A stretch of 64,000 nucleotides of DNA from Clytia hemisphaerica (Eukaryota; Cnidaria; Hydrozoa; Leptothecata; Clytiidae): the NCBI GenBank assembly GCA_902728285.1, contig CACVBU010000597.1:648215-712214 (forward strand), read 5' to 3'. Under the pieces are notes generated by a model. The model saw only the letters and a list, made by a program, of their open reading frames with translations, searched no databases and was not told where the DNA came from. Shown one piece after another: positions 26,777 through 55,555 of this stretch; within the stretch, counting starts at the first letter, position 1, and each line of letters begins with the position of its first letter. The translations under genes and the position numbers were made by a program.

Positions 26777-26842
26777 GAATGATGTTGACGCAGGGAAATT
26801 TGAATGGCAATACTCTACGTACTTTGTTCATGTCGAAGAGTA

Positions 26843-27775: not shown

Positions 27776-27899
27776 AAAAAGTCTTTTCGAAAGCAGCACC
27801 GAGGACCTTTTTTTAACAGCTGTTCCCTACCCCATTGTCTGGAAAATTGAGCTTTTTCCCATTCTTAGAAAATCGCCTTCCTAGAAATAAAATCTGTTT

Positions 27900-34949: not shown

Positions 34950-37880
34950 AAGTTGTTGTTGAAAGGCTAAAGCTAAACTGACCCACTTCGCAATCAAAGT
35001 TTTTATGAAATTGGGGGTTGGGAAAAGGGCTGTGTGGAGTGCTTAGCATCGCCTTTTTAAGGTTGTCCTTGCTTTGGCACACAGTTCCTTCTCTTTCATA
35101 CCAAAAACAAGTTAATATACTAGCCCAGGCTGTTTGGAGTGCTTAGCATCGCCTTTGTCAAAAGGTTGTCCTTGCTTTGGCACACAGTCTCTCACGCTTA
35201 ATCAAAGAAATTAATAAATTGCGTACTTTTTATCAATGACATTTGTTCTTTTTTATTTTCAAGATAATAAATAGAGAGCAAATTCTTTGAAAAGAAAGTG
35301 TAGGGAATGGTATAAGCATAGCCAGTATTTGTCATACAATCTCATTTTCTGAATCAAGAATAAAGTTGTTGTTGTTTTGGGGCTAAAGCTAAACTGATCC
35401 ACTTCGCAATCAAAGTTTTTATGAAATTGGGGGTTGGGAAAAGGGCTGTGTGGAGTGCTTAGCATCGCCTTTTTAAGGTTGTCCTTGCTTTGGCACACAG
35501 TTCCTTCTCTTTCATACCAAAAACAAGTTAATATACTAGCCCAGGCTGTGTGGAGTGCTTAGCATCGCCTTTGTCAAAAGGTTGTCCTTGCTTTGGCACA
35601 CAGTCTCTCACGCTTAATCAAAGAAATTTAATACATTGCGTACTTTTTTATCACTATGACATTGTTCTTTTTCATTTTCAAGATAAAAGAGAACAAATTC
35701 TTTGAAAAAAAGTGTTGGGAATGGTATCAGCATAGCCATTATATGTCATACAATCTCATTTTCTAAATCAAGAATAAAGTTGTTGTTGTTTTGGGGCTTA
35801 AGCTAAACTAACCCACTTCGCAATCAAAGTTTTTATGAAATTGGGGGTTGGGAAAAGGGCTGTGTGGAGTGCTTAGCATCGCCTTTTAAGGTTGTCCTTG
35901 CTTTGGCACACAGTTCCTTCTCTTTCATACCAAAAACAAGTTAATATACTAGCCCAGGCTGTGTGGAGTGCTTAGCATCGCCTTTGTCAAAAGGTTGTCC
36001 TTGCTTTGGCACACAGTCTCTCACGCTTAATCAAAGAAATTAATAAATTGCGTACTTTTTATCAATGACATTTGTTCTTTTTTATTTTCAAGATAATAAA
36101 TAGAGAGCAAATTCTTTGAAAAGAAAGTGTAGGGAATGGTATAAGCATAGCCAGTATTTGTCATACAATCTCATTTTCTGAATCAAGAATAAAGTTGTTG
36201 TTGTTTTGGGGCTAAAGCTAAACTGATCCACTTCGCAATCAAAGTTTTTATGAAATTGGGGGTTGGGAAAAGGGCTGTGTGGAGTGCTTAGCATCGCCTT
36301 TTTAAGGTTGTCCTTGCTTTGGCACACAGTTCCTTCTCTTTCATACCAAAAACAAGTTAATATACTAGCCCAGGCTGTGTGGAGTGCTTAGCATCGCCTT
36401 TGTCAAAAGGTTGTCCTTGCTTTGGCACACAGTCTCTCACGCTTAATCAAAGAAATTTTAAATACATTGCGTACTTTTTATCAATGACATTGTTCTTTTT
36501 TATTTTTAAGATAATAGAGAACAAATTCTTTGAAAAGAAAGTGTAGGGAACGGTTTCAGTGTAGCCAGTATTTGTCATACAATCTCATTTTCTGAATTAA
36601 GAATAAAGTTGTTGTTGTTTGGGGGCTAAAGCTAAACTAACCCACTTCGCAATCAAAGTTTTTATGAAATTGGGGGTTGGGAAAAGGGCTGTGTGGAGTG
36701 CTTAGCATCGCCTTTTTAAGGTTGTCCTTGCTTTGGCACACAGTTCCTTCTCTTTCATACCAAAAACAAGTTAATATACTAGCCCAGGCTGTGTGGAGTG
36801 CTTAGCATCGCCTTTGTCAAAAGGTTGTCCTTGCTTTGGCACACAGTCTCTCACGCTTATCAAAGAAATTTAATACATTGCGTACTTTTTTATCAATATG
36901 ACATTGTTCTTTTTCATTTTCAAGATAAAAGAGAACAAATTCTTTGAAAAAAAGTGTTGGGAATGGTATCAGCATAGCCATTATTTGTCATACAATCTCA
37001 TTTTCTAAATCAAGAATAAAGTTGTTGTTGTTTTGGGGCTTAAGCTAAACTAACCCACTTCGCAATCAAAGTTTTTATGAAATTGGGGGTTGGGAAAAGG
37101 GCTGTGTGGAGTGCTTAGCATCGCCTTTTTAAGGTTGTCCTTGCTTTGGCACACAGTTCCTTCTCTTTCATACCAAAAAAAAACAAGTTAATATACTAGC
37201 CCAGGCTGTGTGGAGTGCTTAGCATCGCCTTTGTCAAAAGGTTGTCCTTGCTTTGGCACACAGTCTCTCACGCTTAATCAAAGAAATTAATAAATTGCGT
37301 ACTTTTTATCAATGACATTTGTTCTTTTTTATTTTCAAGATAATAAATAGAGAGCAAATTCTTTGAAAAGAAAGTGTAGGGAATGGTATAAGCATAGCCA
37401 GTATTTGTCATACAATCTCATTTTCTGAATCAAGAATAAAGTTGTTGTTGTTTTGGGGCTAAAGCTAAACTGATCCACTTCGCAATCAAAGTTTTTATGA
37501 AATTGGGGGTTGGGGGTTGGGAAAAGGGCTGTGTGGAGTGCTTAGCATCGCCTTTTTAAGGTTGTCCTTGCTTTGGCACACAGTTCCTTCTCTTTCATAC
37601 CAAAAACAAGTTAATATACTAGCCCAGGCTGTGTGGAGTGCTTAGCATCGCCTTTGTCAAAAGGTTGTCCTTGCTTTGGCACACAGTCTCTCACGCTTAA
37701 TCAAAGAAATTTTAAATACATTGCGTACTTTTTATCAATGACATTGTTCTTTTTTATTTTTAAGATAATAGAGAACAAATTCTTTGAAAAGAAAGTGTAG
37801 GGAACGGTTTCAGTGTAGCCAGTATTTGTCATACAATCTCATTATCTGAATCAAAAAAAAGTTGTTGTTGTTTTGGGGGA
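34950..37880. repeat. Satellite, seven ~415-bp units with paired dyads
   Basis: Each unit has two similar ~56-bp modules (GGCTGTGTGGAGTGCTTAGC, then GTTGTCCTTGCTTTGG and CACACAG). Module pairs begin near 35028/35125, 35446/35541, 35866/35957, 36272/36366, 36686/36787, 37100/37204 and 37526/37625. Each module can fold: CTGTGTG pairs with CACACAG, with a small inner CCTT(T)/(A)AAGG hairpin. Spacers are of three types in the order A, B, A, C, B, A, C. Two type-A blocks (around 35259-35498 and 36088-36327) are identical, so exchange is recent. The 79-aa ORFs here are by-products. Confidence 0.9.
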
Positions 37881-39264
37881 GCTAAAGCCAATCTGATTCA
37901 CTTGATATATACAGGCTTGTTTATAAGAATAGTACCAAGATTCGGGTGAGTGTTGAGAGTGAGATATTAAGAAAATTAAAAGAAATTAGGTCAAAATTCT
38001 CTTGTTTCTGGAAATCGACCAGATGAATATTTATTTTGGCAGCCACCCGGGCTGTAAAATCTTTTTTTATTTTGATGTTTATTCAATTAACACAAACAGT
38101 ATTCGTCCTTGAAAGTATGGAAAAAGCATAATTTTTGCGAAGAAAATCAGTCAAACAAATATTCTTCTTGAAACAGTAGAACGATCTTTAAAATGTAAAA
38201 AAATTATTTTGTGTTGTCTGAGTGAGATTTTTTTTGTCACTCGCATTTCCAGAAACAATATTTCTTTTTTGTGTAAGCGTAACTTTTAACAGAAGATGCT
38301 TTGCTTTATAATGATATGGTTGGATTACTAGCTCTGATACAGATAAATGAAAAAGAAGAATATTTTAAGAATATATCACCCTTAGATTGGGACTTATTCC
38401 TAAGAGTACTTTATTTTCAGATGAAAAGACCTATATTAATAGAAAAAAATTGTGTAGTCAGCTGATTATTAAATTGGGGTTCAAGGTGCAGTTAAAGGGT
38501 ACACAATTGTCTGTGACTGTCTAGAGAAAATTGGTTCTGGAGATTTTTATCTTACTTTTTAAGCTTTCCAGCCCAAAAGACGTATATTTTTGTCTTCAAG
38601 ACCTTAAATTAAAAGGCCGATTTGTTTCATCACTATTATTGCTATATTTACTATAAGTGCTCTCATTTCAATTTTTTGTCTCCAAAACCTTAGCCCTTTT
38701 TTGTAAATAAACTTGCAAACTCCCTATCAGCAAAAATAGTAAAACTTCAACCTTCTGCAAGCAAAGCAAAGATTGCAATTTCTTCCAGTTTCTTCGCAGT
38801 AAACATTTGCATCTTAAATCAGACTGGATGATGTTTTTTTAGCCTGATTGCTGACTCTAAACTAATAAAGTTAGAAGAGTGAAGAGCTGCAACTGTAGTT
38901 TGCTCCATGCACGGGTCTATATCTGAGATCAAAATAGCAGTTATTTTCATAATGGTGGAAAAGGGGCCACACAGCTGTGAATAAACAATTGATTGAAAGT
39001 TACTTTTTAAATTTTAAAGCACAACCAGGGATCGTCAAGATAGCAGACAACAAAACTTGCAATATTTGCTATCATTTTCAAAGTTTTCATGGAATTTCAT
39101 AGCATATCTGCTAAAATCAGATAGCATCTACAGCATTTATAGTAAGTGAAACAAATATGTCCAAAGTATTTCAGATGTTCAAATGACTCTTAATAAACCA
39201 GCTGTGCTGGAAGGTCAGCCCGAAATGATAAGAAAGATTAGAAGATAAGAAGATTAAAATAATT
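37881..39264. other. No gene seen
   Basis: AT-rich single-copy-looking sequence. No ORF, splice pair or repeat that I can support. Confidence 0.35.
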
Positions 39265-39269
39265 AATTC

Positions 39270-39893
39270 AAGGAAAACTAGTTGTCCCGTATTTTCCAAG
39301 GAAAATTACTTATCGCGTATTTTCCAAAGAAAATTAGTTATTGCGTACTCTTAGGTGCCAAATAAACGGGCCCACCTGCTTGTTAATTTTTCGATTTTGG
39401 GGGTTTCAGAAGTACAATTTCCAACCCCCCGGCAATTAGGTCCCCCCGTTTATCAAAATTTCGAAAATTTTCCAACCCCCCCCCGTTTATTTGGCACCTA
39501 AGAGTATTTTCCAAGGAAGATCACTAGACCGTATTTTCCAAGGAAAATCACTGCTCCGTATTTTCTGAGGAAAATTAGTTGTTGCGTATTTTCCAAGGAA
39601 AATTAATTATTGCGTATTATCCAAGGAAAATTAGTTATTGCGTATTATCCAAGGAAAATTAGTTATTGCGTATTATCCAAGGAAAATTAGTTGTTGCGTA
39701 TTTTCCAAGGAAAATCACTGGTCCGTATTTTCCAAGGAAAATCCTTTGTTCCGTTCTTTCCCAGGAAAATCAATTTTCACGTATTTTTCAAGGAAAATTA
39801 ACCATTACATACTTTCCAAGGAAAATCAATTGTTCCCTATAGCTAATTTCCAAAGGAAACCATTCTAATTTCCAAAGGAAATCATTTGTGTCG
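39270..39893. repeat. 30-bp tandem repeat, TTTTCCAAGGAAAA
   Basis: About eighteen diverged copies of a ~30-bp unit: TTTTCCAAGGAAAA (an inverted repeat TTTTCC/GGAAAA) plus a spacer such as TTAGTTATTGCGTA. The array is interrupted by the MITE at 39348-39504. Further relics lie near 40270 and 40470. Confidence 0.85.
39348..39504. mobile_element. 157-bp MITE with perfect 23-bp TIRs and TA duplication
   Basis: Ends 39348-39370 and 39482-39504 are perfect inverted repeats beginning CTCTTAGGTGCCAAATAAAC. TA flanks both sides (39346-39347 and 39505-39506), as in Tc1/mariner-type insertion. The core has C/G runs of five to ten bases. It splits one unit of the 30-bp array, so it is younger than the array. 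Confidence 0.88.
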
Positions 39894-40269
39894 TACATGT
39901 TTTTTTTTATAAGCAAGTGTATGCCCCTTGGTCAGGCTCGTGTATGCTTAAGTTCTCAAAGCATCCAGGCATAGTTTATGCTTATTATATGCTTAAGAAT
40001 CATGCTTATGATTCACCCCGAGCCAAGTTTTTTATGAAATTTCTGAAATTTTGTAAAAGTTTGTTCAGATTTTGGGAGCAGTGGAATGTTAGCTTGCCGT
40101 GGAATGTCTTATTTTTTACTTGACCTCTACAAAACCTTTTTAAACAGATAAAAATGACCACTTGAAAAATATTTTAGGCTGACATATATGCTCATGTTAT
40201 GCTTAGGAATTCTGCAAATTTCAGCCTTCATATGCTTAAGCGTTATGCTTATAAAAAAAAAAACATGTA
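39894..40269. mobile_element. Foldback module 1, TACATGTTTTTTTTATAAGCA ends
   Basis: Inverted ends TACATG plus an A/T-run plus ATAAGCA at 39894 and 40269 enclose a core with repeated TATGCTTA. It shares its left 60 bp with module 2. Confidence 0.6.
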
Positions 40270-40322
40270 TTCTCCAAGGAAAATCACAGCACTTTATTGA
40301 TTTTCTTTTGAAAGAAAAGACG

Positions 40323-40480
40323 TACATGTTTTTTTTAATAAGCAAGTGTCTGCCCCTACATCAGGCTTGCATTATGCTTAGCATTCTATTGTTCTCAAAC
40401 AATAGAGCCATTGTTTAGGTACCAAAAACTGAGCCTGCATATGCTTATAAACGCTATGCTTATAAAAGAAAAAACATGTA
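40323..40480. mobile_element. Foldback module 2, same ends as module 1
   Basis: 158 bp with the same TACATG...TAAGCA inverted ends and GCAAGTGT(A/C)TGCCCCT just inside. A shorter relative of the neighbouring module. Confidence 0.6.
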
Positions 40481-40904
40481 TTTCCCTTGCAAAAAAAACA
40501 AAATAACTGAAATTCCTTGAGCAATCATTAGTTGGATTTTTCTTTTTGAAAAAGAAGATTATTATTCCCTTGAGAAACACACAAAATCAATTTCCTATGC
40601 GAAAATTCATAGCCTGTCTTATTTAATTGAAAATACAGATTTTATTTATTTTTCTCTTGGAAAACTGCTCAGAATGATGATTTCACAAACTGGGGGGAGG
40701 AGTCTTCAAAAGTCATGCATCCGACATGTTCTAGTCCATGATTGCTCCAGTTTTTCCGAAACCAATTTTGCCCGACAAAAAGTGTCAAAAGAATATTTGT
40801 TTCAGAAAAAACGTTATTAGCCTGTCTGACTAGCCAACCAATTTTTAACAGTTCAAAGTAGGCGGAGGACCGTGTCCGTCTAGTACAGACTTTTAAACTA
40901 AATT
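40481..40904. other. No gene seen
   Basis: AT-rich. Bases 40710-40850 resemble 34740-34860 in inverted orientation, so they are probably two copies of an old mobile element. Confidence 0.35.
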
Positions 40905-41030
40905 TAGGGAAAAAGTCTCTCAAAGGGTCCTAAAATCATCAAAATTTTGTCTCTCAAAGGGGCGATTTTCGATTTTTGCCTCGGACATACCTGTCACCTC
41001 GCAAACCTAAGTACCCCCCCCCCTCCCGGA
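40905..41030. repeat. Dispersed repeat, GTCTCTCAAAGGG units and C-tract
   Basis: Two copies of GTCTCTCAAAGGG, then CGGACATACCTGTC and GTACCCCCCCCCC. Closest in layout to 9240-9410; a single short copy of that family. Confidence 0.65.
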
Positions 41031-41230
41031 GCATCCCTGTACCCCTTTTTGCCAAATATTCACCCATGTATATCTCGAGGAAAGTGTATTGGAACTTTGT
41101 GATTCAAAGGCAGATTTTGGATGAAAATTGTATCAAAAGTATCAAAAGATTAAAGGACAACAACAAGATCTGCTATTTAAAAAGATAATTTTCTCGTCCT
41201 CCATCATCTTCCGTGCAAATTTTGTTAACA

Positions 41231-41298
41231 GCTAGTTAAGCATCGTCGGGGCAGGGCGGGACGATACTTGGATGGGGGACCAACCTGGTAAGTCTGTT
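41231..41298 (+). ncRNA. 5S rRNA-like fragment
   Basis: GTTAAGCA followed by TACTTGGATGGGGGACC and ACCTGG matches the internal promoter half (A box, IE, C box) of eukaryotic 5S rRNA. The first ~45 nt and the 3' end are missing or unrecognisable. Probably a pseudogene or the head of a 5S-derived SINE. Confidence 0.65.
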
Positions 41299-41584
41299 TT
41301 AGACTTTTAGAAAGAAAAATATCAACAAGGAGTATGAAAATCTAGTGAAAATCAATTGATATTTAAGGTTAAAAATATTCATAGAGCCTCGTTTTTTGTT
41401 TGACATTCTGTTTTTATCTTTTTGAAGGCGTTTTCAAGCTCAGAAAATTATGATCTGTACCTCAAGACTGAGGACCGTCTGGACCGTTATAAAGCCAAGG
41501 AGTGCTTGAAAAATCAATGTTTTTGATTAGGTCTGAAATATTTTTTATCCCTGTGGATAGATAAGTTTAGAAAAGAAAAAAAAA

Positions 41585-41654
41585 TACATGTGGGGGAATC
41601 GAACCCTAGACCATCTGGCTCTGAGTCTGATGCTCTACCGACAGAGCTAATTAA
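41585..41654 (-). tRNA. tRNA-like pseudogene (Lys-type body)
   Basis: Minus strand: D arm GCTCTGTCGGTAGAGC, T arm GGGTTCGATTCCC, both close to animal tRNA-Lys. The anticodon stem has mismatches and the loop CTCAGAG would give anticodon CAG. Acceptor strands do not pair. Read as a decayed tRNA or a tRNA-derived SINE head. Confidence 0.55.
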
Positions 41655-43057
41655 TCGAAAATATGCGCGAAAGCAAATGTTTTTATATTACAAAAAAAAG
41701 TAATAAAAAATGACGTAATGTAATTGCGTAAAACATTTTCATTGGCGCATACAAAACAATAGGCAGGATTTTCATTGTTATTTTGTCGATACTGGCGTAA
41801 TCATTTGAGAGCAGGTGTATTCCGATCAGAATAACAACTAATACTTACTTAGCGCTAGCCATTAGCGATACAAGGTTCTAGAAATCCGTTCGGGAATGTT
41901 TTGCCGAAAACGTAAATCGGGGAAACACTTTTTTGAACACGGACGCAGCATGGAAAAAGCCGATTTGAAAGCTCAGCTTGGGCTGACCAAAAAGTATAGA
42001 ATTGTATTATTTAGCTATAAAAAAAAGTGTTTTTGATTAATTTTTTAGAGATCTATAAAATTTTGAAGATTTGAACAAAAATGACTTTTTAGAAACATTG
42101 ATTTTTCATATACCTTTTGTGTTGCCTCATAATTTTTGCCCTAAATCAAATCGAATGTTCACTTGGACGTATTTCTATAAAAAATGTTGCGCACTGGAAA
42201 GGTTAATTAAAGAAATGATTTGTATACTATAGTTTGATGGTACATTATTAGACCTTTAACGCCAACCCTTATTGGGGTTATTTTCGGGCATTAAAAGAAC
42301 TGGCATTTAAAAGGGCTGATATATTCAATGTTTCACAAAAATCAGTGATTCCAACTACTTAATACCAACAAATTTTAGTCAATTTACTTTTTTTAGGCCT
42401 TAAATTAATTAAATTGTGATTTTTGTACGTTTTGGTGTTATATTTACGACCCTAATAGGCATAATCCCAAAATTAGGCTGTGGGGTAAAATGGCAGGGCC
42501 AAAAAGATACTTAGTTAGAAACTCAATTAAAATTGACTATCAAACTGTATCAAATAATAAGGGTACCAGACAGTCATCAATTCTCTTTAATTTTCACCTC
42601 ATTCTTCAAAGCTCTTTGAAAGTTTGTAGATTTGTAATCTTGATCATTATGCACAAATTAGATTGAACCCATGAAGCTTCAAGCTGAATGTCGCTTTAAA
42701 CAGGACACAATTTATACAAACTTCAATCATATCGACAGATTGTACCTAGCCCACTTAGTGTTAAGGCAAGCACCAGTGAGCTCATCTGAAGTTTAATATT
42801 GTTAAAAAGTGAAGTTGATTTTAAGTAAAACAGGACAGGAAATATATTTATATTATATGAATTTGATTTATTTAATTGCATCTAATATTCTTTTGATAAT
42901 GATTGAGTAGAGTCCAGTATTTATTTCTTGTCTTCATCTCTAAAACTTTTTACTCACACAGGTGACAATATGAAAGTGAAGATGAAACAACGTTGAGCTG
43001 ATATCAAAGAACTTGGGTTTGCAACTATCCAGGTGTTTCTTTTTACAATTTTTCATT
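41655..43057. other. No gene seen upstream of the transposase-like gene
   Basis: AT-rich. I looked for terminal inverted repeats of the element that follows and did not find a convincing one. Confidence 0.35.
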
Positions 43058-43282
43058 ATGGCTTCTAAGCTCGTAAACTCATGGTTTGATGAGTGTGTTT
43101 CATTTAATGAGAACAAGTACGTCTTGTTGAACAAGTTGAAAGAAAGCTTCAGGCATTTCCATTTTCCTTTTGGTGAGGAGGTTGATAATGATTGTTTAGA
43201 AAATGAAATTAAAAGAATTTTCATGGAGAAGGGTGTCAAGTTTCTTCGAAAATTTTCAGGAAACATGGAAAGAAATTTTTGA
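43058..43282 (+). CDS. N-terminal segment of the transposase-like protein
   Basis: An ATG-led 74-residue frame, MASKLVNSWFDECVSFNENK through EKGVKFLRKFSG. The next frame (plus one) takes over near 43260, where ATTTTCAG makes a possible acceptor. Either a small intron or a one-base shift links them; I cannot decide which. Confidence 0.45.
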   Translation: MASKLVNSWFDECVSFNENKYVLLNKLKESFRHFHFPFGEEVDNDCLENEIKRIFMEKGVKFLRKFSGNMERNF

Positions 43283-45759
43283 AGGTATTTAGAGTTGAGT
43301 TGAGGAGGGATTTGAGCATTGCCCATAAAGTTTCTGTGATTAAAACGGTTGGAACATGTCAAGAGCTATCCATGTCCCATGAAGGAATGAATGCTGAAAG
43401 TGTAGCTGACGAAGAAACAATGTCCAACTGGGACAATGATTGTTTGCCTTTAGAAACTTGTTCAGACCTTAAAGATACATCAATTGCAGATAAAACACCA
43501 ATAGTCCAAGGAAAATTAAGTTTACCAGGTGATTCTTATATGAGTGAAAATGGGGTTGAGGAAATGAATGTTCCAGGTTCCATTTCTGATTTTGAGTTCG
43601 ATGCCTATTCTGTCAGTGACTCCAGCATCTCTCCTATGTGTCCAAAAAGTAGTTTTCTTGAAGGTGAGGATCGTTTCACTTCTGAGGATGAAAGTAGCGA
43701 TGAAAGTAGCGATGTTGCAGTGGAAGAAACCAACAGTGGGAAATATCCAATTGAACCTGTTTCGGAAAAACCTTTTGATAAAAAATTGGACAACAACCCT
43801 TTTGGCAACAAGTCCCCGTCCTCATCTAAACCTGCAAAGTGTGAGATTCACAATGATACTCAAGAAACAAAAAAAAAGAATTCTTTTGTTGATTATTTTA
43901 AACAAAGCCAAACAAAGAAAAGATCGTCTGACACATTATCAACATACCCTGCAAAACAGTTTTCTTTTAGAAAAGTAAAGGAATCTCTTTACTATGACAA
44001 TTTGGTCTTTTCAAGATTTTATGAGAATTACAAAACAATTACGCCTTCTAACCTACCATCATGCCAATTTGATAGCTCTGAAAAATTCCTTGATGCAAAA
44101 TTTCCGATATCTGGTTGCGAAAAAGAGAAAATGGCAAATATAATAGACAGGGCAAAATCTTATAAAGGTTTTCTAGAGTTAAAAATGAACGTTTTTTTAT
44201 GTGCTTCTTTTCCACCAATCCCAGCAGGAAATCTTGTAAAACAATTTATTGATTATATTGAACCTGGTACTCCAATACCACAATTTTCTTCTCTGAGCAG
44301 TGCTTCAAAACTGTTGTTTAAGTGTGAAGTGTGTGAATTGTACTCTTTTTACCTGAAAACAACTGGCAAAGGCTGTCAAACACGCTTAGGGAAACTGGAA
44401 GGCTGTCGCCAACTGTACGAACATGGAAATGCAAACCATCACATTAACGCAATTGAATTTTTGAAAAGTCAATCAAAAGAATCAGAAAAAGTTATCACGC
44501 ATCAACAATCTAAAAAACATGTTTCGAACTACTTTAAAGATTTGATATCAGAAAAGGGTAAACAAGTTCCTTGTATGTTTGTTTGGGACCAAAAAATAGT
44601 TACTACATTTGAAGACGATCAGTCAATAAGGCGCAAATCACCTAAGACCTTTTTCAAAGAACAGAAATTGTGGAAAAATTGTGAAGCTCATCATCAAGAC
44701 TGTAATATATTTGCAAACTGGAAAAAAAATCACTCCGAAGAGCATGCTAAATTATGCAGGGAACTTGAATTTCGATCTGGCAGATCTGTTTTTGTCCCAG
44801 CAAACAACCAGAAAATACTAATTCAAGGTGAGACGGTCACAATTAAAGGCGGTATAAAATCACTTGATCCTCCATGCTTAGGATCTGCAGTAAATATTGG
44901 CCCACACCCTTACACTTGTCAGAATTGCCATCGACAGCTAAAAGATCTCAACAAAGTATTGAAAAGTCGTGAAAATAAAGCCTCACTTCCTACAAGTGAA
45001 TCAAGGGTTGGGAAAAAAGGCATGAGAAAAGATTATTACACTAAAAGTGAAAAGGAAAAACACTTTCATGAAACCTTTCAAAGGAATGAAGCGTTAGTGA
45101 AAGAAAACAAAGAATACAGAAGAATGATTTACAGTAAAACAAACTGGCAAAAACTTTTACTTGAAAGTTGCGAAAATGACGACGTTAAAAAGCTAGTTCT
45201 AGACCTTGTATTCTTACTCAAGCAAAGCATCAACCAAACAATAAAAAAAGAAATCATCACAAATGTTTTAGGGAAACTGAAATCTGGGGTTAATCACAAA
45301 TTCAAACCAGTAATTAAAGATATTGCTACGTTTTTTCACAATTCTTTAGGCCCCAATAAGTACAGCTTACTTCAGGATCTATTTGGTTTACCGGGTAAAA
45401 CATTAGCCAAGTCTCACGGGAAGCAGACTCAACTTTGTCTGGGGTTAAATGAGAAGGTGTTTGAAAATGGCACGGTGTTGTACGATGGGGGACCGGTTGT
45501 TGATGCCACAGATGAAGCAAGAACTTTGAGGTTTCTCACTGCTGTTGTTGGGAAGGATGAAAGGATCGAAATCATTGGTGAATGTTGGGATCCAGATATC
45601 AGCAAGTGGGATAATTCGAGAGTCTTTTTGGAGGATATTGTCAAGAAAGAAGGATTTGTAGATGAGTTTTCTGCTCTGGAAAATTATGTCACCAAAACAA
45701 TCAAGCAAAATCAACTGGCTAAAGATACAGCCATCCACAATTTACTTTCTGCATCAGGA
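43279..45759 (+). CDS. Transposase-like protein, N-terminal half
   Basis: About 827 codons. The first 230 residues are acidic and Ser-rich, probably disordered (DESSDESSDVAVEE). Then come possible metal-binding pairs: CEVCELYSFYLKTTGKGCQTR near residue 350 and YTCQNCHRQL near 555. A helical, Lys-rich region follows. Near 690 there is LGPNKYSLLQDLFGLPGKTL, of the kind that precedes a DDE core in THAP/P-type and related transposases. It is open from 43279 with no stops. It leads into the next exon across a predicted 49-nt intron (45760-45808). The first ATG in this frame is at 43373. Confidence 0.65.
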
Positions 45760-45808
45760 GTAGAGTCTAAACCTTTGATATATCTAATCTGGCCCACTGC
45801 TAATTCAG
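45760..45808 (+). other. Predicted 49-nt intron
   Basis: GTAGAG donor after NLLSASG and CTAATTCAG acceptor before VTVLHLLKIWD. 49 nt accounts exactly for the plus-one change of frame between the two long ORFs, and removes the stop TAG at 45847 from the reading. A one-base error would also explain the shift. Confidence 0.5.
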
Positions 45809-48800
45809 GTTACCGTTCTGCATCTTTTGAAAATTTGGGATGTTGTTAGACAAAAATGCTTTTTATCACCATCTGGAGAGTGGCGAAAAAAACCGATCAA
45901 TCTTGTCGGTCATGCCTCGGATTCTGCCGGCTTTCAATTAGCTGCAGCTGTCACTTTAATGACACCTTTAACTAAAGCTTTCCAAAAAGACGTCAAGTAT
46001 TTGACATTGGATGCTGGAGCAAGCCAGTATGCTGCCCCATATTTTGGTCCTTTACCTTCGATTGCTTACTTGGATTATGACCACAATCTTCGCCTTTTCC
46101 TCAAATGTTTGAAGTACGAGACATTAGATCTCAACTTATTTCCAAATTCATCTAATACTCACATTGCATCCATTAATCATCTTCAAGAACTGAAGATCAT
46201 TCTTGATGATTCTGGTAATGGTCATCTTTGCACCTTTTCAAACAATGATCTGCTTTTTGCTCGCTTCCTTGATCAAAATTGTGATGCTGCTTTGAAGGTG
46301 TTCACCAATAGAATTGCAGATCTTTTGCGGGAGCATGTTCCAGGCTCAAGTGGGACATCTTTATACATCAAAGGTGTGGTAGCTCTGTTCAGACCATTTC
46401 TTTTTCCAGAATGTGACCCTATTTCAATAATGGAAAGTTTGTCAGAGGGAATAACTATTTTTAGAATCTGGAGGAAAATATTGCAGCTTAAAGGTAAGAG
46501 ATTGAGCGCTGTTGCAGGGGCAGCTAAAAATGCTTCTAAACGGGGTAGTTTTCTCACTTATGGATGTTTCAAAACTGCTGAAATTTTATTCGCTGCTGGC
46601 ACGTGTCACATGTTAGCCATGTTTGCTCATTTTAAAGATAAGGGCACATCGATGCTCCCCCTTTCCAATTGTGGCACCAAAACTACTGAGAGGATCATAA
46701 GCGAGGTTCAAGGAAAAACAAACCAGTTGCAATCTTTAGATGCACAGCCGACATTAGCAGGAATCATGAGTAAGATTTCAAAGGTGCAAACTAATCATAC
46801 TGCCTTGGATAACATAATAGCGGCTGGAGGAAAAAAACAAAGTTCAACAAACAGGAGAAGACTATCAGACAAGCTTGTAAAGGCAGCCAAATCTGATTAT
46901 ATGTATCCCGAGTCTTATGCTGATTTTCAGAAGCAGCTGACGATTGCCTTCAAAAAGGGTGTTGATAAGGGTATCGACTTGTATAGAGAATATTGCAAGG
47001 AAGGTTTGAAATTTTTGAAGGAAAAGAAGGTTAGTCTGAGTTTTTTGACTGAGTTTAAGAATGGAGTTCCAAAGAAAAACATGTTTGATGGCTCTGTAAG
47101 TGAGGAATACGCCATGGAGAAATTGAAGATGAATCCTGCAGAACTTTTTGTTGAGGATGCTGTGAGTGAAGAAAATCTTATCACTAAATATCTCAATCCT
47201 GAAGATATTGGTAAGATTTGGGACTCAGATAAAGACAGTGACAATGTCAAAGATGAAGAATTGATCCCTGACGAGATGTTGACCGATCTTGAGTCAAATG
47301 ATGACAAGACCGAAGGTGTAAATTCCGAAGGACGAAAGTGGTTTCTTTCAAAAATAATCAATGGAGAAAAGAAAGAGATTCATCTGGCACAGGCTTTGAA
47401 ATTGCTGATCCCAAGAGAGTTTGTTTCAAGAGAACGTTCACGTAGGCACATTGCATCGAAGTTTCTTCCAGATAGAAAAGAGATAAATGAAAGTCACAAT
47501 GTCATTCTTTTCAGGTTTGTTGTTGCAAAGATTTCAGGAAAGATCACCATTTGCAAAGTCGCAGCTTTAAATTCGAGTGGCAAAAGTGTCAAGAGTGCTT
47601 CTAATTTGGATTACGGTGTAACATGCCAACTCATTCCTCTTAAAAAGTCGGAACAAAATTTGTATGTGTTGCCTCAGAAAATCCTTGTTAGCAGTTGGAT
47701 AAATGTTTGCAATATTTTAGGAGAAGTCAAAATGTCTTGTAACAAATCCAACCAATTTAGTATACTGGAAAAATCGCTTAGTGTTTTGGAAGAGGCTGAA
47801 CAAACTCTCAAGGAAGCTGCTGATCGTAAATTTGCTCAAAGTGTTTCGAAAAACCTGCTACCTGCAGAATTTTACGAGGTAGAGGATATCATTGATAAGA
47901 AGATAGATCCAAAAAGTGAAGAGTATTTGTATCTTGTGAAATTCAAGGGGAAAGAAGACTCTCCAGTGTGGCTCAACCAATCTTGTTTTGATCGTAAAAT
48001 CCACTTTAGTAAGAGAATGGGCTTCAAATGTAGCGAAAAGGTATTTGCCTCTCAAAACTCATCTTTTATGGAGTTCGCTTTGAAAGACGGAAAGTCTTCT
48101 CATCAAACCTCTTCTTCTGCAAAGCGAAAATCATCTAATCCAACCCTGACACCAATCCCTTCTAAAAGAAAGCGAACGAAGCAACCTGTCTCTGTTTCTG
48201 CAAAGTCGAAATCCATACTTAAGGCATTTTCATTTGATAAAACACTGTCTTTGAATAAAAAGGAAGGTTCTGCTGCGGTTGATGTCGATGTTGTAATTTC
48301 TTCTGACACTGAAGAGAGAAGTGCTGACCGTAGCGACGAAAAGATCTTTCAGGATGCCATGAAAAAGTTAAGGAACGGTGAATGGGTTAGTGGTGTTATT
48401 GTCAAGAAAGCTACTGATATATTGAAAACACAATTTCCTCATCTTCAAGGGCTCCAAGAAACTTTGAAATCCAAAAGTCAATTGTCAAAGTTCAAAGCAG
48501 TAGATTTCGAGGTTGATAGCATCCAAGTTCATCATGCTGGTGGTTCCCACTGGGTTTTGTCATCGTCAAAAGAGGGCAACGTTTTTGTATACGATAGCCT
48601 TTATGATGAACCTACAGATGATTTGAAACTACAGTTATTGCTATGCTATAAAAACTTTATGAAAGATGGTCAGTTAAAAGTTCAATATAAACCAGTTTCA
48701 AAACAGGCTGGTTCAACAGATTGTGGTATTTTCGTCATTGCTTATGCTTTCGATATTGCCAGTGGGAGATCCCCTGAAAAAATCATTTATAACCAGTTTA

Positions 48801-48913
48801 CCATGAGAGCACATCTTTCGACTTGCATTAATAGAAGGTCTTTTTCACATTTTCCAGTTGTTCTCAATGATAATTCAGATACTAAAATTTGTTCAGTATT
48901 TATGATCAAGTAG
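45809..48913 (+). CDS. Transposase-like protein, C-terminal half: core, chromodomain, Ulp1-type protease
   Basis: About 1,034 codons. Residues 20-320 resemble an RNase-H-like transposase core (GHASDSAGFQLAAAVTLM; SIAYLDYDHNLRLFLK; CGTKTTERIISEVQGK). Near residues 685-725 lies a chromodomain (YEVEDIIDKK, LYLVKFKGKED with aromatic cage candidates), which could bind methylated histone. A basic Ser-rich linker follows. Residues about 845-1015 are a C48/Ulp1-type cysteine protease: NGEWVSGVIV, catalytic His in GGSHWVL, Asp in VYDSLYDE, Gln and Cys in KQAGSTDCGIF. All four catalytic residues are present, so SUMO-protease activity is plausible. No stops. Confidence 0.7.
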   Translation, partial: VTVLHLLKIWDVVRQKCFLSPSGEWRKKPINLVGHASDSAGFQLAAAVTLMTPLTKAFQKDVKYLTLDAGASQYAAPYFGPLPSIAYLDYDHNLRLFLKCLKYETLDLNLFPNSSNTHIASINHLQELKIILDDSGNGHLCTFSNNDLLFARFLDQNCDAALKVFTNRIADLLREHVPGSSGTSLYIKGVVALFRPFLFPECDPISIMESLSEGITIFRIWRKILQLKGKRLSAVAGAAKNASKRGSFLTYGCFKTAEILFAAGTCHMLAMFAHFKDKGTSMLPLSNCGTKTTERIISEVQGKTNQLQSLDAQPTLAGIMSKISKVQTNHTALDNIIAAGGKKQSSTNRRRLSDKLVKAAKSDYMYPESYADFQKQLTIAFKKGVDKGIDLYREYCKEGLKFLKEKKVSLSFLTEFKNGVPKKNMFDGSVSEEYAMEKLKMNPAELFVEDAVSEENLITKYLNPEDIGKIWDSDKDSDNVKDEELIPDEMLTDLESNDDKTEGVNSEGRKWFLSKIINGEKKEIHLAQALKLLIPREFVSRERSRRHIASKFLPDRKEINESHNVILFRFVVAKISGKITICKVAALNSSGKSVKSASNLDYGVTCQLIPLKKSEQNLYVLPQKILVSSWINVCNILGEVKMSCNKSNQFSILEKSLSVLEEAEQTLKEAADRKFAQSVSKNLLPAEFYEVEDIIDKKIDPKSEEYLYLVKFKGKEDSPVWLNQSCFDRKIHFSKRMGFKCSEKVFASQNSSFMEFALKDGKSSHQTSSSAKRKSSNPTLTPIPSKRKRTKQPVSVSAKSKSILKAFSFDKTLSLNKKEGSAAVDVDVVISSDTEERSADRSDEKIFQDAMKKLRNGEWVSGVIVKKATDILKTQFPHLQGLQETLKSKSQLSKFKAVDFEVDSIQVHHAGGSHWVLSSSKEGNVFVYDSLYDEPTDDLKLQLLLCYKNFMKDGQLKVQYKPVSKQAGSTDCGIFVIAYAFDIASGRSPEKIIYNQFTMRAHLSTCINRRSFSHFPVVLNDNSDTKICSVFMIK

Positions 48914-48939
48914 ACCAAAACATTTAAGAAAACACGATT

Positions 48940-49660
48940 ATGTACCGAATCAATTGCACTTCACTGTTCCTTAGATGTATGGCAGTTTTAATAATGTATG
49001 GTGGGTTAGTGGTTTTTTTCCTGGGTTGGTGTACAGTTCGATTTTTTTGTAGATTGGTAATGGTTTGGTTTTTCCAGATGGAGTTGCAGTTTTGTTGTTT
49101 CTGGGTAGGGTTGCAGTTTTGTTGTTTGTTGGTGGGTTATAGTTTCAGTGTTGCCAGATGGGGTTCCATCATTGCTGTTTGTGGGTGGCTGACATTTTCG
49201 GGGCTGCTAGATGGGGAGTTCCAGCATTGCTGTTTGCGGGTGGGCGATAGTTTCAGTGTTGCCAGATGGGGTTCCAGTATTGCTGTTTGTGGGTGGCCGA
49301 CAATTTCAGTGCTGCTAGATGGGGCTGGCTTGTAATTTAGTTGTTTGCAGGTGGGTGGGGGTTTCAGTGCTGCTAGATGGGATTACATTTTTGTTATTTG
49401 CGGGTGGCTGACAGTTAGTTTTTATGGATGAGGTTGCAGTTTTGTTACTGAATGAGCTGGCAACTATGGTGTTCCTGAATTGGTTGTGCTGGCAACTATG
49501 GTGTTCCTGAATTGGTTGTGCTGGCAACTATGGTGTTCCTGAATTGGTTGTGCTTGCAACTATGGTGTTCCTGAATGACCTGGCAGCTACAGCCGTTCCT
49601 GAATATATTGACAGTCTTTGTGTTCCGGGCTGGCATTTTGGTGTTACTTTTCTTTTGTTT
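48940..49660. repeat. G/T-rich minisatellite region
   Basis: Two blocks. 49060-49420 has diverged ~60-bp units with GATGGGGTTCCA and TGCTGTTTGTGGGTGG. 49455-49600 has about four copies of a 38-bp unit TGCTGGCAACTATGGTGTTC. It follows the transposase-like gene and may be its 3' UTR; the ORFs on both strands are by-products. Confidence 0.7.
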
Positions 49661-50084
49661 GTTGGTGGTTGGATTGAAATTTTGATTTTTTGGGATGGGT
49701 GACGACAGTCTTTCTCATCATGGAAGGCGGTCGTGGTTTTTTATCTTGTTTATAGATCTTTGGTCTTGCGTGACTTGATCCTTTCTTTTACTTTTTATAA
49801 CGGTTTGATTGCAGAGTTCGTGTGTGGCGAGGATACCAGTTTTGGAGGAGTTAGATGGAGTACAATATTGAATGATGAGATGCAAATTATTAAGATTCTA
49901 TGAAATTGAAGTGGGCTCCACGGTTTTTTCTCATAATTGGCTTACGCAACTAAAGCGGTTAAAACATGCCTGTTTCATTGGGTAAACGAGTTTTTTATCC
50001 GAAGAGTCTGAATTACCACCGCAGATTTGAAAAAGGTGCATAATTCCAATTCATAGAATCAAAGGTACATAATCTTGTTAACTC
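49661..50084. other. No gene seen
   Basis: AT-rich, no repeat or ORF supported. Confidence 0.3.
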
Positions 50085-50675
50085 GGGACCACCAGTAGGA
50101 CGGAATGTTACCTTTGAATTATTCTGTTTTCAGATGACAATCCCGCATCACTTTGGATTTTGATTATTTTGTATATAGTAGCGGTTTTCAGGTTAATATT
50201 AGTCTTTTGGAATTTTTGTTTTAATCAAACATAGTTAGTGTTCATAATTAAATCTCACTACTTCAAACCAGTAATCGAATATTTCGGGGAGTGGTTAAAT
50301 CTTATCTTTTTCGTTCGTATTAATTCATGTACAGTCAACAGAAGACAGCTTGTTTGATCCAGTTGTCAAATTTTTTGGGAGTGGTTGAAATTTATCTTTT
50401 CGTTCGTATTAATTCATGTACAGTCAACAGAAGACAGCCTGTTTGATCCAGTTGTCAATTTTTTTGGGAGTGGTTGAAATTTATCTTTTCGTTCATATTT
50501 ATTGATGTAATATACAGTCAACAGAAGATCAGAGTTGCAGCTTGTTACTTTGATCCAGCATCCAAATATTTTGGGGGAGTGGGGTTTTGTTTCAATTGTT
50601 CATGGAGTTGACTGAATCGATTATAGTAAACCGAGTATCGTAATTCAAAGGTAACGTTCTGTTGGTGTGGTGGAC
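50085..50675. repeat. Possible foldback enclosing a ~93-bp tandem repeat
   Basis: Inverted ends share GTTACCTTTGAATTA at 50107-50121 and 50641-50655, with CCACC pieces beyond. Inside, 50285-50535 has three copies of a ~93-bp unit (GGGAGTGGTTGAAATTTATC, TACAGTCAACAGAAGACAGC). Confidence 0.55.
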
Positions 50676-51070
50676 CAGCCTGACCCAATTTTTGGGTCAT
50701 GCCAAGGCGCGAGTGTGGGGCGCCTTCTACTCCAAATATAAAGGATTCTACTATTGGTCATGAATAAGAACGGTTACTTTTTACTGCAAACTAAAACCGT
50801 CATAATTCATGTCTCATTAAAATAGGAATAAGATCATAAATTGTTTTTGTTAAATATTCGTCTAATTAGTTGCGGGACGGCGGTTCGGGGGGTGGAATGG
50901 GTTCCCTGATTCCGTGCGTCAATTTGTACCTAAATTTCCGACCCAAATTTCCGTCCGTAAATTCCGACACAGCTTTTTAAGAACGTCTTTACAATGTGTT
51001 CTCCTCGAATTCAAGAGTTTTCGATTTGTTTCCCTTTTCTATCTCTTGCTCTCAGAATTTTACGCTGAAA
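50676..51070. other. No gene seen
   Basis: Contains a short palindrome CCCAATTTTTGGG near 50696; nothing else supported. Confidence 0.3.
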
Positions 51071-51071
51071 G

Positions 51072-51322
51072 TAAGCCTGAATTTTAAGCCCGAAGGGCTA
51101 GAAGTGAATCTCATGTCTTTCCCGGACAAAACCAAGTGATGCTTCAACAATTTTCACCAAATAACGGATGAAGAATTGAATAGAAATGATATTTTTTCCG
51201 AAATGTCATTTTTTCAAAATCTAGCGGTAAACGCTTTTTTCAATCTTTGCATTTGTATGATAACCATGTGGGTCGCGCAACTTTGGAAGATTCGTTTCTA
51301 GCCTTCGGCTTAATTCATTGTG
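51072..51322. mobile_element. Diverged hAT-like MITE, relative of 2310-2606
   Basis: The ends contain TTTTAAGCCCGAAGGGCTAG and, inverted, CTAGCCTTCGGCTTAATTC. Internal AATCTAGCGGTAAACGCTTT parallels ACGTAGCCGGCAAACGCTAT in the copy at 2.3 kb. Target duplication not clear. Confidence 0.65.
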
Positions 51323-51800
51323 CCTGAGTGTGTGTACTCTATTTTGCTTTTCTTTTCTTTAAGCTTCTGGCTGTACAATACCCGTATGTGGCAAGATTCT
51401 ATCAGTTATCTTTAGTAAGTGGCTTTTAAAATAATTTTTGTTAGTTTTTAATTCGCGAAATTTTATTGTAAACTTCGCGGTTTTATGGCATAAAAGTTGG
51501 TACGATTTCTCTCTTCTGGAATATTGAGTGTAAGTAAAGAAATTGTGGGCAGAATGTTGATTCATTTTTTTTTACCTTTCAGCTATCGATCATCTGGGTT
51601 CTCTGGCAACTGGAGTGGGAATATACATATAACGACCGACTATCGAGAGCACCTTTAACTTTCCTCCGATATTAGAACGCTGAAGATTTGCTACAAAGTT
51701 CAAAAATCGCTTTCAACCGCTTTCAACAAAATTTTCAACCAACGAAAATAGTGACCGAGAGAGAATATTCCGTCGATAAGGAATTTTAGTCGAGTTTGGA
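51323..51800. other. No gene seen
   Basis: No ORF or repeat supported. Confidence 0.3.
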
Positions 51801-51805
51801 AACTA

Positions 51806-52275
51806 TTCTAGTCGCGAGTTAGGGAGTTGTTAGTTTCGAGTTGGGGAGTTAAAAAATTACCGGCTAGCGAAAAAGAATAACATACATCAAAAGTACGATT
51901 TTCAAAGTAAATGTAATATGAGAGTAATATATAACACATATAATACGTATAATACATATACCACCTGTAATATGCTTATTTGCCTTAAACATGTGCGCTG
52001 AGAGCATGGAAAGCTATTTTCTACTGTCAATTCATATCCATTTATATTTCCTGCATCACATTGAGTAACTGTATTTTATAATGTGATCAGAATTTTTATT
52101 AAAAAGTGTATCAATTCCAATGATAAAATGACAAAAGAAAGTGTCATTATTTTTCTAACTCTATAAGGTATCTCTGCGAATTTTTTAAATTAGAAAATTT
52201 TCGGTCGCCGTAAATTTTTACGAACTCCCCAACTCGAAACTAGCAACTCCCCAACTCACTAACTAGAACATTACC
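51806..52275. mobile_element. Foldback MITE with internally repeated ends
   Basis: Imperfect inverted ends of about 65 bp. Each has two direct copies of GAGTT(G/A)GGGAGTT around TAGTTTCGAGTTGGGGAG, then a matching AAATT(T)ACCGGC/ACGGCGACC piece. The core of ~340 bp is AT-rich with no ORF. Confidence 0.75.
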
Positions 52276-52971
52276 TAGACTAATTTTAGTTCCATTGCAA
52301 TTGAACTTTTTTCGAACTTTAGTCTACTTTTTGAGATTTTCTATTTATACTACTGTACCGACTGATTTGAATTCCAAACCAGACTCTTTTAATTTTTTAA
52401 ATTTTCAATGAATTTTTGTAATATGACCAGTATTAAATAATTACCGAAGAACGTTTGATAAAACTGAATTCGTAGTACGTTATTCATAGTCGAACGTGCG
52501 CAACGCACTGGGCTCAACTTCAGTGGCTTCAAATCATTCATAGGACCGATTGTAGCAAAACAAACTAACTTTAAAACTCATTATTGAAGTCACAAAAGAT
52601 AATTCCACAAAGATTATAACAGTAAATATTTGTCAATGCTAGTTTTAATTAAATCATACAATTCTAATACGAGCTGAAAGAATATGAGATGGCGAAAACC
52701 AAGCAAGCATACTATCAGAAAATTTACATGTAACTCCAACTTTAAAATCAATGTTAGTACCTTAAAAGAATTTATTTTCCCAAGAACTAAAATATTTTTG
52801 AATAGCCAAAATCCAAAGAAAATTCTTCACTGAGAACTTAGTTTAAGCAATTTGACGACTTTTAGGTTTTTTTGTCAAAGTAGAAAAAAAAATTATTTGA
52901 GCTATAAAACTAGTAGTGTTCGGCAAATCAATTCATTTTAAGTATTAAAAAATGGTTAACAGCCAAGTCAT
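52276..52971. other. 3' region of the Helitron or flank
   Basis: No gene. On the minus strand GTGCGTTGCGCAC (5-bp stem, about 52496-52508) is a hairpin where a Helitron 3' end might be, but no CTRR end follows at the usual distance, so the terminus is not called. Confidence 0.3.
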
Positions 52972-53806
52972 TCAAACATCTTTACAGAGGTCTCTGTTTT
53001 TAAAATCTTCCATCATTGCTTTGCAGTCGCTATCCATGGGGAGATTCAAAATATTTTGGTTGAATGGTCTAAGGATTGTCAAATCAGACAATCTTCTAAT
53101 CCTACTTAAAGGGACATAGACAAAACTAAGATCGATCCTCTTCATCCCCTTTGGAGGAATTAAGTCAATGACAATACTGCTCAAAGTTTGCCCTTGACTT
53201 TTATGAGCTGTGCAAGCAAAGGCAGGGACGAGCGGAAAGTGATTCCTTTTGATTGTGAGACTTTTCGCTCCCGGTTTGATAGTAAACGATCCATGCGCAG
53301 GGAAGACTGGAACATGATTTCTATCCAATCCTGTTAGCCCATGTAAATTGATACGATTAAACTCCACAACAAGATAAGGTAATGGTTCGTTTAAAACTAC
53401 AACTCCAGCATGGTGAGAATTTGTTTGATTTTTGGGAGTTGGAATTGACCTGATGACTCCTGTGGCGCCGTTTGTCAAGCCAAGCTCAGTTGATATATTC
53501 CTCGTAAGAAAGACAGGCATTCCTTGATACAATGGAAGTTGACCAAGTAGACCATCAGTTTTAGTGCTTGGTAGCGATTTTAATGTGGATATCTCATTTT
53601 CATCTAGCTCTTTTTTTGACATCGACAGACTTTGAAACATAGACTGTATTTGATTTTGCATAGTCATCAATAAAAAAAATTATTGATTTCTCGAACTAGC
53701 TGATTGCCAGGAACAATAATTGGATCTTTGGTAGGAGTAACGGGGCTTGAATTGCATCCAATCACCCTGGACGATAACACCATGTAATCCTCGAGTGTAG
53801 ATTTCC
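52972..53806 (-). pseudogene. Helitron PIF1-type helicase, C-terminal exon
   Basis: The exon starts after acceptor TTTTCTTTTTTTTAG at 53807: GKSTLEDYMVLSSRVIG and PIIVPGNQLVREINN. The frame then changes in a run of eight T at about 53676, after which the 53670-52972 frame continues with PLYQGMPVFLTRNI, FACTAHKSQGQTL (motif V) and VYVPLSRIRRLSDL (motif VI). It is the complete C-terminal half of a Helitron SF1B helicase. The break in a homopolymer could be a sequencing error. Confidence 0.8.
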
Positions 53807-53992
53807 CTAAAAAAAAGAAAACATCCGCGGAAGAAAGAAGGTCATGAAACAAATATTTCATATGAAAAAACATTCCAAGTGTTATCGGTTATTAGTAATT
53901 ATTGAAGAAGGGATAGTTCTTTTTAAATGATATTAATGGTGAATTTTATGCAAAATATTAAAATTAGGCGAAATTTGGCTTTTAATGCTTAC
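53807..53992 (-). other. Helitron helicase intron (186 nt)
   Basis: Donor GTAAGC after ELLDRLRTG and a polypyrimidine acceptor ending TTTTTTTTAG before KSTLEDY. The splice is phase-exact and restores the continuous RTGKSTLEDY reading expected in Helitron helicases. Confidence 0.8.
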
Positions 53993-55484
53993 CTGTTCGT
54001 AGGCGGTCCAACAATTCTTGGTAAGCTTTGTCGGTAATCCTCATCTGCTGATCAAGAAGGACAATATGAGTTAGTTGTTTCCAAATTGATCTGCCCAATT
54101 CTCTTTGAATAGATGACTGGCTAGTTGAAGAAGGTATTTCATTGCTGTTGTATCTCCAAAACAGAGGTGTATCCAAGACAGGTGGGAACTGGGTGAAATC
54201 CCCAAAATAAATAATGTCGATTCCACCAAAAGGGATATCTGGATTACTGTGTTTTGCACGTGTGACGTTGCTGCTAAATTTAGCCAAAAGCCGACAACCA
54301 ACCATCGAAACTTCGTCAAGCAATACTGTCTGAACATGCTCCCACTTATCCTCAAGTTTTGCTATTTTGGTGTTTCTTAGTCCTGCCAAAGAGGTTATTG
54401 TGCTACCACCAATATTATTTGCTGCAGTCCCCATGAAGGCGCATAAACGAAGTTGATGTCTTATCTTTAATTCATCATGAAAATAAACGATGGCCTTAAT
54501 GACTTGGCTTTTTCCTGTGCCCCCAGGTCCTCCAACATACGCCATAACTTGTTCGGTATCTTCATTACGTATTCTTTTGACGATGTTAGACGTTGCAAGT
54601 CGAAAAACTCTTTCTTGTTTCTCGTTAAGAGAAAACTCTAGCACAACATCATCGATGACATTTTCAATATCTGTTTCTTGACGTTCAACATTGAAGAGTA
54701 TAGAGTTCTCGCGTGTCCGGTTTGAAGCATCTACATCCAGTGTGGTATCTTCACAAGTATTTGCAAACATGTTTTCCATTTCTTGTTCATTGAGAGACTT
54801 AATTTCCTTCTTCCAATGAAGTTGCTGTGATGTTGGAGCGATAAATTCATCGAATGAAGAAGATTCGTGCGATGATTGCGACTGACTGGCCCACCCACTA
54901 GATTCAATGATATCCAAAGCTTGGGATGTTAGCACGTCTAATTCCTGTGATCGAATAAGTGTAATTTCATTTCGAGTCTCCTCAAGAGTGAAATCGATTT
55001 CTTCTTCGTTATCATGGTTTCCTTCAAAAACATCAGGGCTACGCACTTGAATGCTTTCTTCTTTTTCTTTCATACCAATATGCATTTCTTTGATGTTCCA
55101 AATAAAACCAATACTTTCCTTAAAGTCAGTGTTCATATAAGTTTCTTCCCAGCTAATTCCATTGTATAGCTGATCAAAATTCGAGAAAGGTTTGAAGAGT
55201 AACAACATAAAAGTGTAAAATTTTTCCTTGTCACCATCTTCACTGGGTGGTAGGAGTGATAGGGCTGGGATGACTGCTTCTGCCCTTTCAATTTGTAAAT
55301 GGGTTTCTGATTGAGGGTGACCTTCGGCAAAAAGGTATCGTGGCTGCGGTTTGCGTCCCCTGCCTCCTGTCTTTTTGGAAAGTTTTCTCTTTTCTTCATC
55401 TGATAATTTAGCTTTGTAAATTTTGGAGCAGTAATTATAGAGACAAAATATCGGATAGCTCTGACCCTCTATTGATGTAGTCAA
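53993..55484 (-). CDS. Helitron PIF1-type helicase, N-terminal exon
   Basis: Begins in YNYCSKIYKAKLSDEEKRK; the preceding frame (about 55545-55450) supplies NEGLVLVNLMVDYINRG. Motifs are GGPGGTGKSQVIKA (Walker A), VLLDEVSMVG (Walker B), YFGDFTQFPPV (motif III) and LLDQQMRI (motif IV). It unwinds DNA during rolling-circle transposition. The frame is open for 497 codons up to the intron donor at 53992. Confidence 0.85.
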
Positions 55485-55555
55485 CCATTAGATTAACCAA
55501 AACCAACCCCTCATTTCCAAGTGTTATGTTATAGCCCACTTGTGTTTGTTGTTCT

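Follow-up and report, generated by a model that had tools for sequence, protein, structure and literature searches.

A probable cut-and-paste DNA transposon family in Clytia hemisphaerica whose giant transposase carries a likely chromodomain fold and an Ulp1-type protease

The 64,000-nucleotide window of the Clytia hemisphaerica genome analyzed here (by window we mean this whole stretch, C416:648215-712214 in a 417-Mb assembly that also served as the search target) carries on its plus strand, at 43058..48913, what is very probably a decayed member of an autonomous family of cut-and-paste DNA transposons. In this family one long open reading frame (ORF) would encode a transposase of ~2,000 residues, with Cys/His clusters in its N-terminal part, next a DDE-like core that contains a DxxH motif, then a middle domain and a chromodomain fold, and an Ulp1-type protease at the C terminus. 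A first reading of the window from its letters alone (the sequence-only reading) had described one intact protein of ~1,950 residues. Comparison with P0001, an intact relative from locus L009 (contig C411) that we used as reference protein, gives a different picture, with two frame changes and separate ORFs of 856 and 1,028 amino acids. ORF 1 (43279..45849) matches P0001 in frame 1 over 43462-45819 at 49% identity (tblastn) and encodes an acidic/serine-rich N-terminal region, the Cys/His clusters, and the start of the transposase-like core; ORF 2 (45827..48913) matches in frame 2 over 45821-48859 at 65% identity and encodes the remaining core, the middle domain, the chromodomain, and the protease. 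Because the P0001 matches pass from frame 1 to frame 2 at about 45820, we consider the copy frameshifted where the two ORFs meet (45820..45849). An intron at this boundary was rejected, since the two tblastn matches meet to within two bases and the relatives have an open frame at this place. The other frame change lies at about 43220-43280, across which a near-identical copy on contig C700 is open, and the short N-terminal coding piece (43058..43279, with an ATG at 43059) was aligned by eye with the start of P0001.

The gene is multicopy. A DNA query of window positions 45000-47000 returned at least 44 matches, the window included (best 40 of 47 candidates scored), and P0001 returned at least 35 protein match rows, some loci appearing in several pieces (best 23 of 263 candidates scored). 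Uninterrupted relatives measured stop to stop reach 2,048 codons at L009, 2,185 at L023, and 2,213 at L030, the first two being the 2 of 18 ten-kilobase loci with an open frame above 2,000 codons and the third coming from a locus added later. Certain copies are 98 to 99% alike across several kilobases, and some of these near-identical pairs may be alleles, a pattern that would suit segmental duplication of a host gene or domesticated transposase, or its repeated appearance through unmerged haplotypes. We regard that explanation as very improbable, as subfamilies diverge down to 42-45% protein identity and relatives show the inverted ends, target duplications, and empty site described below; a single-copy host gene, which the sequence-only reading had named as a refutation of its proposal, was rejected on copy number, element ends, and the empty site. 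A search for kin in viral contigs gave 172 pattern matches, of which 0 were confirmed.

Two Cys/His clusters precede the core: a candidate zinc finger, FKCEVC ... YEH ... HH (44317..44443), which is kept in relatives and may bind zinc, and a second cluster, HPYTCQNC (44905..44928), whose H, C, and C are invariant in 6 aligned rows. The core itself is marked by DEARTLR (45511..45531), containing the candidate first catalytic Asp, with DEAR found in window ORF 1 and in the 6 relatives whose sequence covers this position; GHASDSAGFQ (45908..45937), with the candidate second Asp invariant in 7/7; YLDYDH (46067..46084), a DxxH motif whose D and H are invariant in 7/7; and TTERIIS (46682..46702), with the candidate catalytic Glu likewise invariant in 7/7. 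In P0001 numbering these residues are D912, D1052, DxxH 1103-1106, and E1308. Our assignment of the core as RNase-H-like/DDE follows from these invariant motifs and the transposon context. We likened the core to the order D, D, DxxH, insertion, E, which we take to be that of P and hAT transposases; more broadly, the order D, D, DxxH, E resembles, at the level of sequence motifs, that of the hAT/P/MuDR/Kolobok/Dada group. According to PMC3706591, hAT, Kolobok, P, MuDR, and Dada transposases carry a DxxH (or CxxH) motif beyond their second Asp.

The C-terminal protease (48278..48871) retains the catalytic residues of the C48 family (His, Asp, Gln, and Cys), which are invariant in 5/5 copies. Taken alone, the C48 domain of the window matches PF02902 at E=1.6e-4, above the curated cut-off, and all 5/5 excised domains match this model (E up to 10). 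A profile of the family retrieves from the PDB an Ulp1-like SUMO protease (E=6.4e-7) and SENP1 (2.6e-4). In the context of whole ORF2 the PF02902 match falls below the cut-off (E=0.0039), and whole-protein Pfam scans of P0001 and P0002 gave no C48 row. We consider the Ulp1/C48 assignment well supported from sequence, in agreement with the intact C48 protease first proposed for this locus, and, from what is known of the family, predict that SUMO or a related modifier is what the conserved enzyme most likely acts on.

Upstream of the protease, at 47849..48052, lies a region that likely adopts a chromodomain fold. The match to PF00385 is just under the cut-off (E=4.3e-5), with 5/6 domains matching (E up to 10) and no match in whole-protein scans of P0001 or P0002; a chromodomain profile reaches only E=0.037 against the PDB. 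The predicted fold, a three-stranded sheet with a helix, retrieves chromodomain proteins. We compared the region by profile alignment with the methyl-lysine cage of CDYL, which we take to be Tyr/Trp/Tyr. Among 6 copies the first cage position holds Y, Y, K, K, H, and H, the second holds Phe in 6/6, and the third is aromatic in 0/6, such that the canonical aromatic cage is not conserved. The chromodomain announced by the sequence-only reading is thus upheld as a fold, by PF00385 and predicted structure, and not as a conserved methyl-lysine reader; the unconserved cage counts against a classical H3K9me reading.

Wherever dS is estimable, the ratio of nonsynonymous to synonymous substitution (dN/dS) stays under 0.3 for each of the five regions tested: 0.05-0.11 in the core (5/21 pairs estimable), 0.07-0.25 in the chromodomain (7/15), and 0.16-0.26 in the C48 domain (5/10), with 5/10 estimable pairs in the N-terminal region, 4/15 in the middle region, and the remainder saturated. 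In the pairs with estimable dS, every tested region appears from these sequence comparisons to be under purifying selection. The faster evolution of C48 relative to the core, together with the unconserved cage, could be taken to mean that the chromodomain and protease are passengers without a role in transposition. We find this distinctly unlikely, given that the C48 catalytic residues are invariant in 5/5 copies and that both domains have dN/dS of at most 0.26 in estimable pairs.

Multi-copy comparison recovered element ends and target duplications, as had been suggested from the window, in relatives and not at the window copy. In subfamily S3 the right boundary is a sharp stop common to copies, and the left boundary was reached by following copies outward; a left end at C356:74795 or 74194 was rejected since other copies extended further. 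The resulting ends are CAGAAGCATCCGGCGA and, inverted, AAGAAGCATTCGRCGA, forming inverted ends of ~15 bp, with the terminal pattern AGAAGCATYCGRCGA present in inverse orientation at both ends of these relatives. Exact genomic occurrences of this pattern number 55; allowing 1 mismatch raises the count to 231, against 35 for a reversed control. An exact 6-bp target duplication flanks 5 of the 9 two-ended loci (TTTGGG, GATCTA, ACGTGT, TAAGTG, and AAAAAT); mispaired flanks gave 0 exact 6-bp matches in 10,000 shuffles, and no exact duplication of 7 to 9 bp was found in the 9 end pairs. The five exact duplications share no obvious common motif. An empty site was also identified: when rejoined, the flanks of the C356 element correspond to 108/109 bases in two paralogues and 96/109 in a third. 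The ORF that this element interrupts is Gypsy-like, with an integrase core match to PF00665 (E=2.9e-5) that lies below the cut-off. The family gene, in broken form, sits between both ends in C356 (67207-90879) and C786 (606258-626907).

The same ends bound elements that have lost the gene. Elements on C38 (5.5 kb) and C133 (10.4 kb) retain both ends and the noncoding blocks and show no match to proteins P0001-P0005 at E up to 1e-3, with 40 bases of DNA in the C133 element still matching the gene region. Elements of 0.76 kb and 0.4 kb at L056 and L057 also have both ends and resemble derivatives of the miniature inverted-repeat transposable element (MITE) kind. We read the terminal repeat arrays at the C38 element and the C356 right end. 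In the C38 element the 11-bp motif ATSTGCTGTTC, allowing at most 1 mismatch, was counted 19 times against 0.17 expected; the initial ~0.4 kb contains 10 of these and the final ~0.4 kb the other 9. A further 9 such motifs lie at the C356 right end; we infer that these arrays are natural candidates for transposase binding sites. Inverted ends, target duplications, the empty site, and gene-less relatives together lead us to conclude that this is a cut-and-paste DNA transposon family, of the terminal inverted repeat (TIR) type judging from sequence. With the domain matches and with the ends, duplications, and empty site of relatives, the proposal that a transposon encodes this chromodomain and C48 fusion gains support.

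In five S3 loci (for example at L016:8715-9599) an ORF lies 3' of the transposase gene whose protein may also belong to part of the family. This Q-rich, coiled-coil-like ORF (P0003) is a possible second protein of subfamily S3; it was not found in C38 and C133, the two gene-less derivatives examined, and we kept it out of the family definition because it is present in only one subfamily among the loci compared.

Several observations weigh against assigning the window gene to such a family. The window copy's own termini were looked for and none were found, and the ends are attributed from a relative subfamily with ~67-71% DNA identity. Both gene-bearing two-ended elements carry a broken gene, and their lengths, 23.7 kb (C356) and 20.6 kb (C786), are not intrinsic sizes because they include nested repeats. 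On C411, where P0001 is intact, a right-type end lies ~10 kb past the stop codon and the contig stops before a left end. No exact duplication is present in four of the 9 end pairs, where 5, 5, 4, and 2 of 6 bases agree; one variant, AGAAGCAGCCGGCGA, which is possibly unrelated, accounts for many of the terminus matches that contain a mismatch; and most synonymous distances are saturated. A profile search of the PDB with the core, moreover, gave no match (E up to 10), its Pfam rows are weak and unrelated (the best at E=0.066) and include no transposase model, and its single-sequence structure model has a predicted local distance difference test score (pLDDT) of 34.5 and is unusable. The RNase-H-like core proposed at the outset is a candidate assignment from motifs (the second Asp, DxxH, and Glu invariant in 7/7) and the transposon context, and not from Pfam, PDB, or single-sequence structure prediction, and the accompanying remark that it could not be placed in a named superfamily agrees with the lack of a Pfam or PDB match by sequence.

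The ends and duplications are unlike those described for Dada, Kolobok, P, hAT, and Ginger, and we therefore treat the family as a candidate new superfamily, set apart from Dada, Kolobok, P, hAT, KDZ, and Ginger1 by the descriptions of those groups. Kolobok duplicates TTAA, and none of our five exact duplications is TTAA; Zisupton/KDZ elements have 8-bp duplications, in contrast to the 6 bp here, and no KDZ Pfam row was obtained. P and hAT duplications are about 8 bp (PMC3706591), again differing from the 6 bp of this family, which also has no match to the Pfam P or hAT models.

Dada is the closer comparison. As described in PMC3706591 and PMC8869645, Dada resembles the present family in its large transposase, of DDE type (a candidate assignment here), in which DxxH follows the second Asp, and in a Cys-rich N terminus, 6-bp duplications (6-7 bp in Dada), and long elements. 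It differs in that Dada was reported without terminal inverted repeats and often in small-RNA genes (PMC3706591), whereas inverted ends and varied targets are found here; term searches of those two papers gave no Ulp1 or chromodomain for Dada. Small-RNA targeting is ascribed to many Dada families and not to all (PMC3706591), and our search for such targets recovered 0 tRNAs in 22 loci and 0 Rfam matches in 12, with flanks that were often only ~60-500 bases. It is quite possible, if somewhat short of probable, that the family belongs to a described DxxH superfamily as a diverged lineage that captured chromodomain and Ulp1 domains, Dada or P/hAT being the likeliest. The 6-bp duplications fall within Dada's range and the position of DxxH is that of Dada, hAT, P, MuDR, and Kolobok; set against this are the inverted ends, which were not reported for Dada, the absence of tRNA or Rfam matches in the scanned flanks, the longer P and hAT duplications, and a core without a Pfam transposase match.

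Protease fusions of a related kind are on record. In several hydra Ginger1 families, as described in PMC2836005, the DDE transposase ends in a fused Ulp1 protease; the same paper suggests a part for Ulp1 in transposition. That source assigns Ginger1 a Gypsy-type integrase, inverted repeats of 40-270 bp, and 4-bp duplications of CCGG/CCGT type, in contrast to the 6-bp duplications here and a core with no integrase match in Pfam. In plant Mutator-like/KIU elements Ulp1 is conserved and tied to noncoding-DNA motifs and escape from silencing, and the function of the transposon-borne domain is called unknown (PMC13317346); unlike the present family, these are non-TIR Mutator-like elements with Ulp1 in a VANC-type anti-silencing gene (same source). 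In searches of openly licensed literature, including term searches of PMC3706591, PMC8869645, and PMC12730594, no fusion of transposase, chromodomain, and Ulp1 was found, nor any described superfamily of the same architecture, a match to which would by the sequence-only reading have refuted its proposal. We tentatively propose, as something possible rather than probable, a new eukaryotic cut-and-paste superfamily with short inverted ends, 11-bp end arrays, and 6-bp duplications that show no obvious preference for a site. Its giant transposase, equipped with a deSUMOylating protease of its own and a cage-less chromodomain, would as one protein both move the element and lift SUMO-dependent repression.

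For the transposon family as such, we hypothesize that full copies express the transposase, whose Cys/His clusters would bind the end arrays; the protein would then pair the ends, excise the element through its DDE center, and insert it with a 6-bp stagger. Because ends are shared, it presumably mobilizes the gene-less relatives as well. With less certainty, the protease may free the transposase, or an element-bound chromatin repressor, of SUMO or a related modifier, and the chromodomain fold may dock on a chromatin partner other than the classical methyl-lysine mark. The original suggestion went further, in that the combination of domains could let an element choose its target and open it; in the form considered here, the protein would do so by reading heterochromatin and stripping SUMO there. 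In its favor, the two domains are both present and conserved; the methyl-lysine cage residues are unconserved in 6 copies and the 5 exact target sites show no obvious preference or motif, such that the suggestion finds no support here and we think it unlikely. Ulp1 domains recur in unrelated transposons (Ginger1, Mutator-like, and plant KIU elements), and in this family the transposase itself contains both a chromatin-type domain and a protease whose catalytic residues are intact, in elements with defined ends and gene-less derivatives, which makes it testable whether the protease aids transposition through removal of SUMO.

The flanks of the window copy are largely shared with other contigs. 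Its 5' region (42096..43058) is 99% shared with C700, and upstream the segments 36000-39196 and 42096-45255 are 96-99% shared with that contig. A high-copy repeat of ~2.8 kb, with many relatives in the genome, is inserted upstream of the gene at 39192-42006. The 3' region (48914..52486) is mostly 96-98% shared with C850, a similarity that covers most of 48000-52487. It contains short tandem repeats at about 49083-49576, and at 51792-52281 a MITE-like repeat with 35-nucleotide inverted arms and tens of copies. A right end of the window copy at 52486 was not accepted, as the sequence beyond consists of repeats common to C787 and C113 and adjoining a Helitron. This Helitron, on the minus strand at 52972-59971, encodes a Pif1 helicase and Helitron_like_N beside a UCH-type ubiquitin hydrolase ORF, making it a second transposon in the window with a ubiquitin-family protease. 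Elsewhere in the window, three overlapping long ORFs at 26779-27850, two on the plus strand and one on the minus, are perhaps repeat-coded, the two plus-strand ORFs having no Pfam match, and a reverse transcriptase ORF (RVT_1, E=2e-32) lies on the minus strand at 4915-7134. At L067:5-967 we also noted a fragment of mitochondrial COX1 in which TGA is read as Trp.

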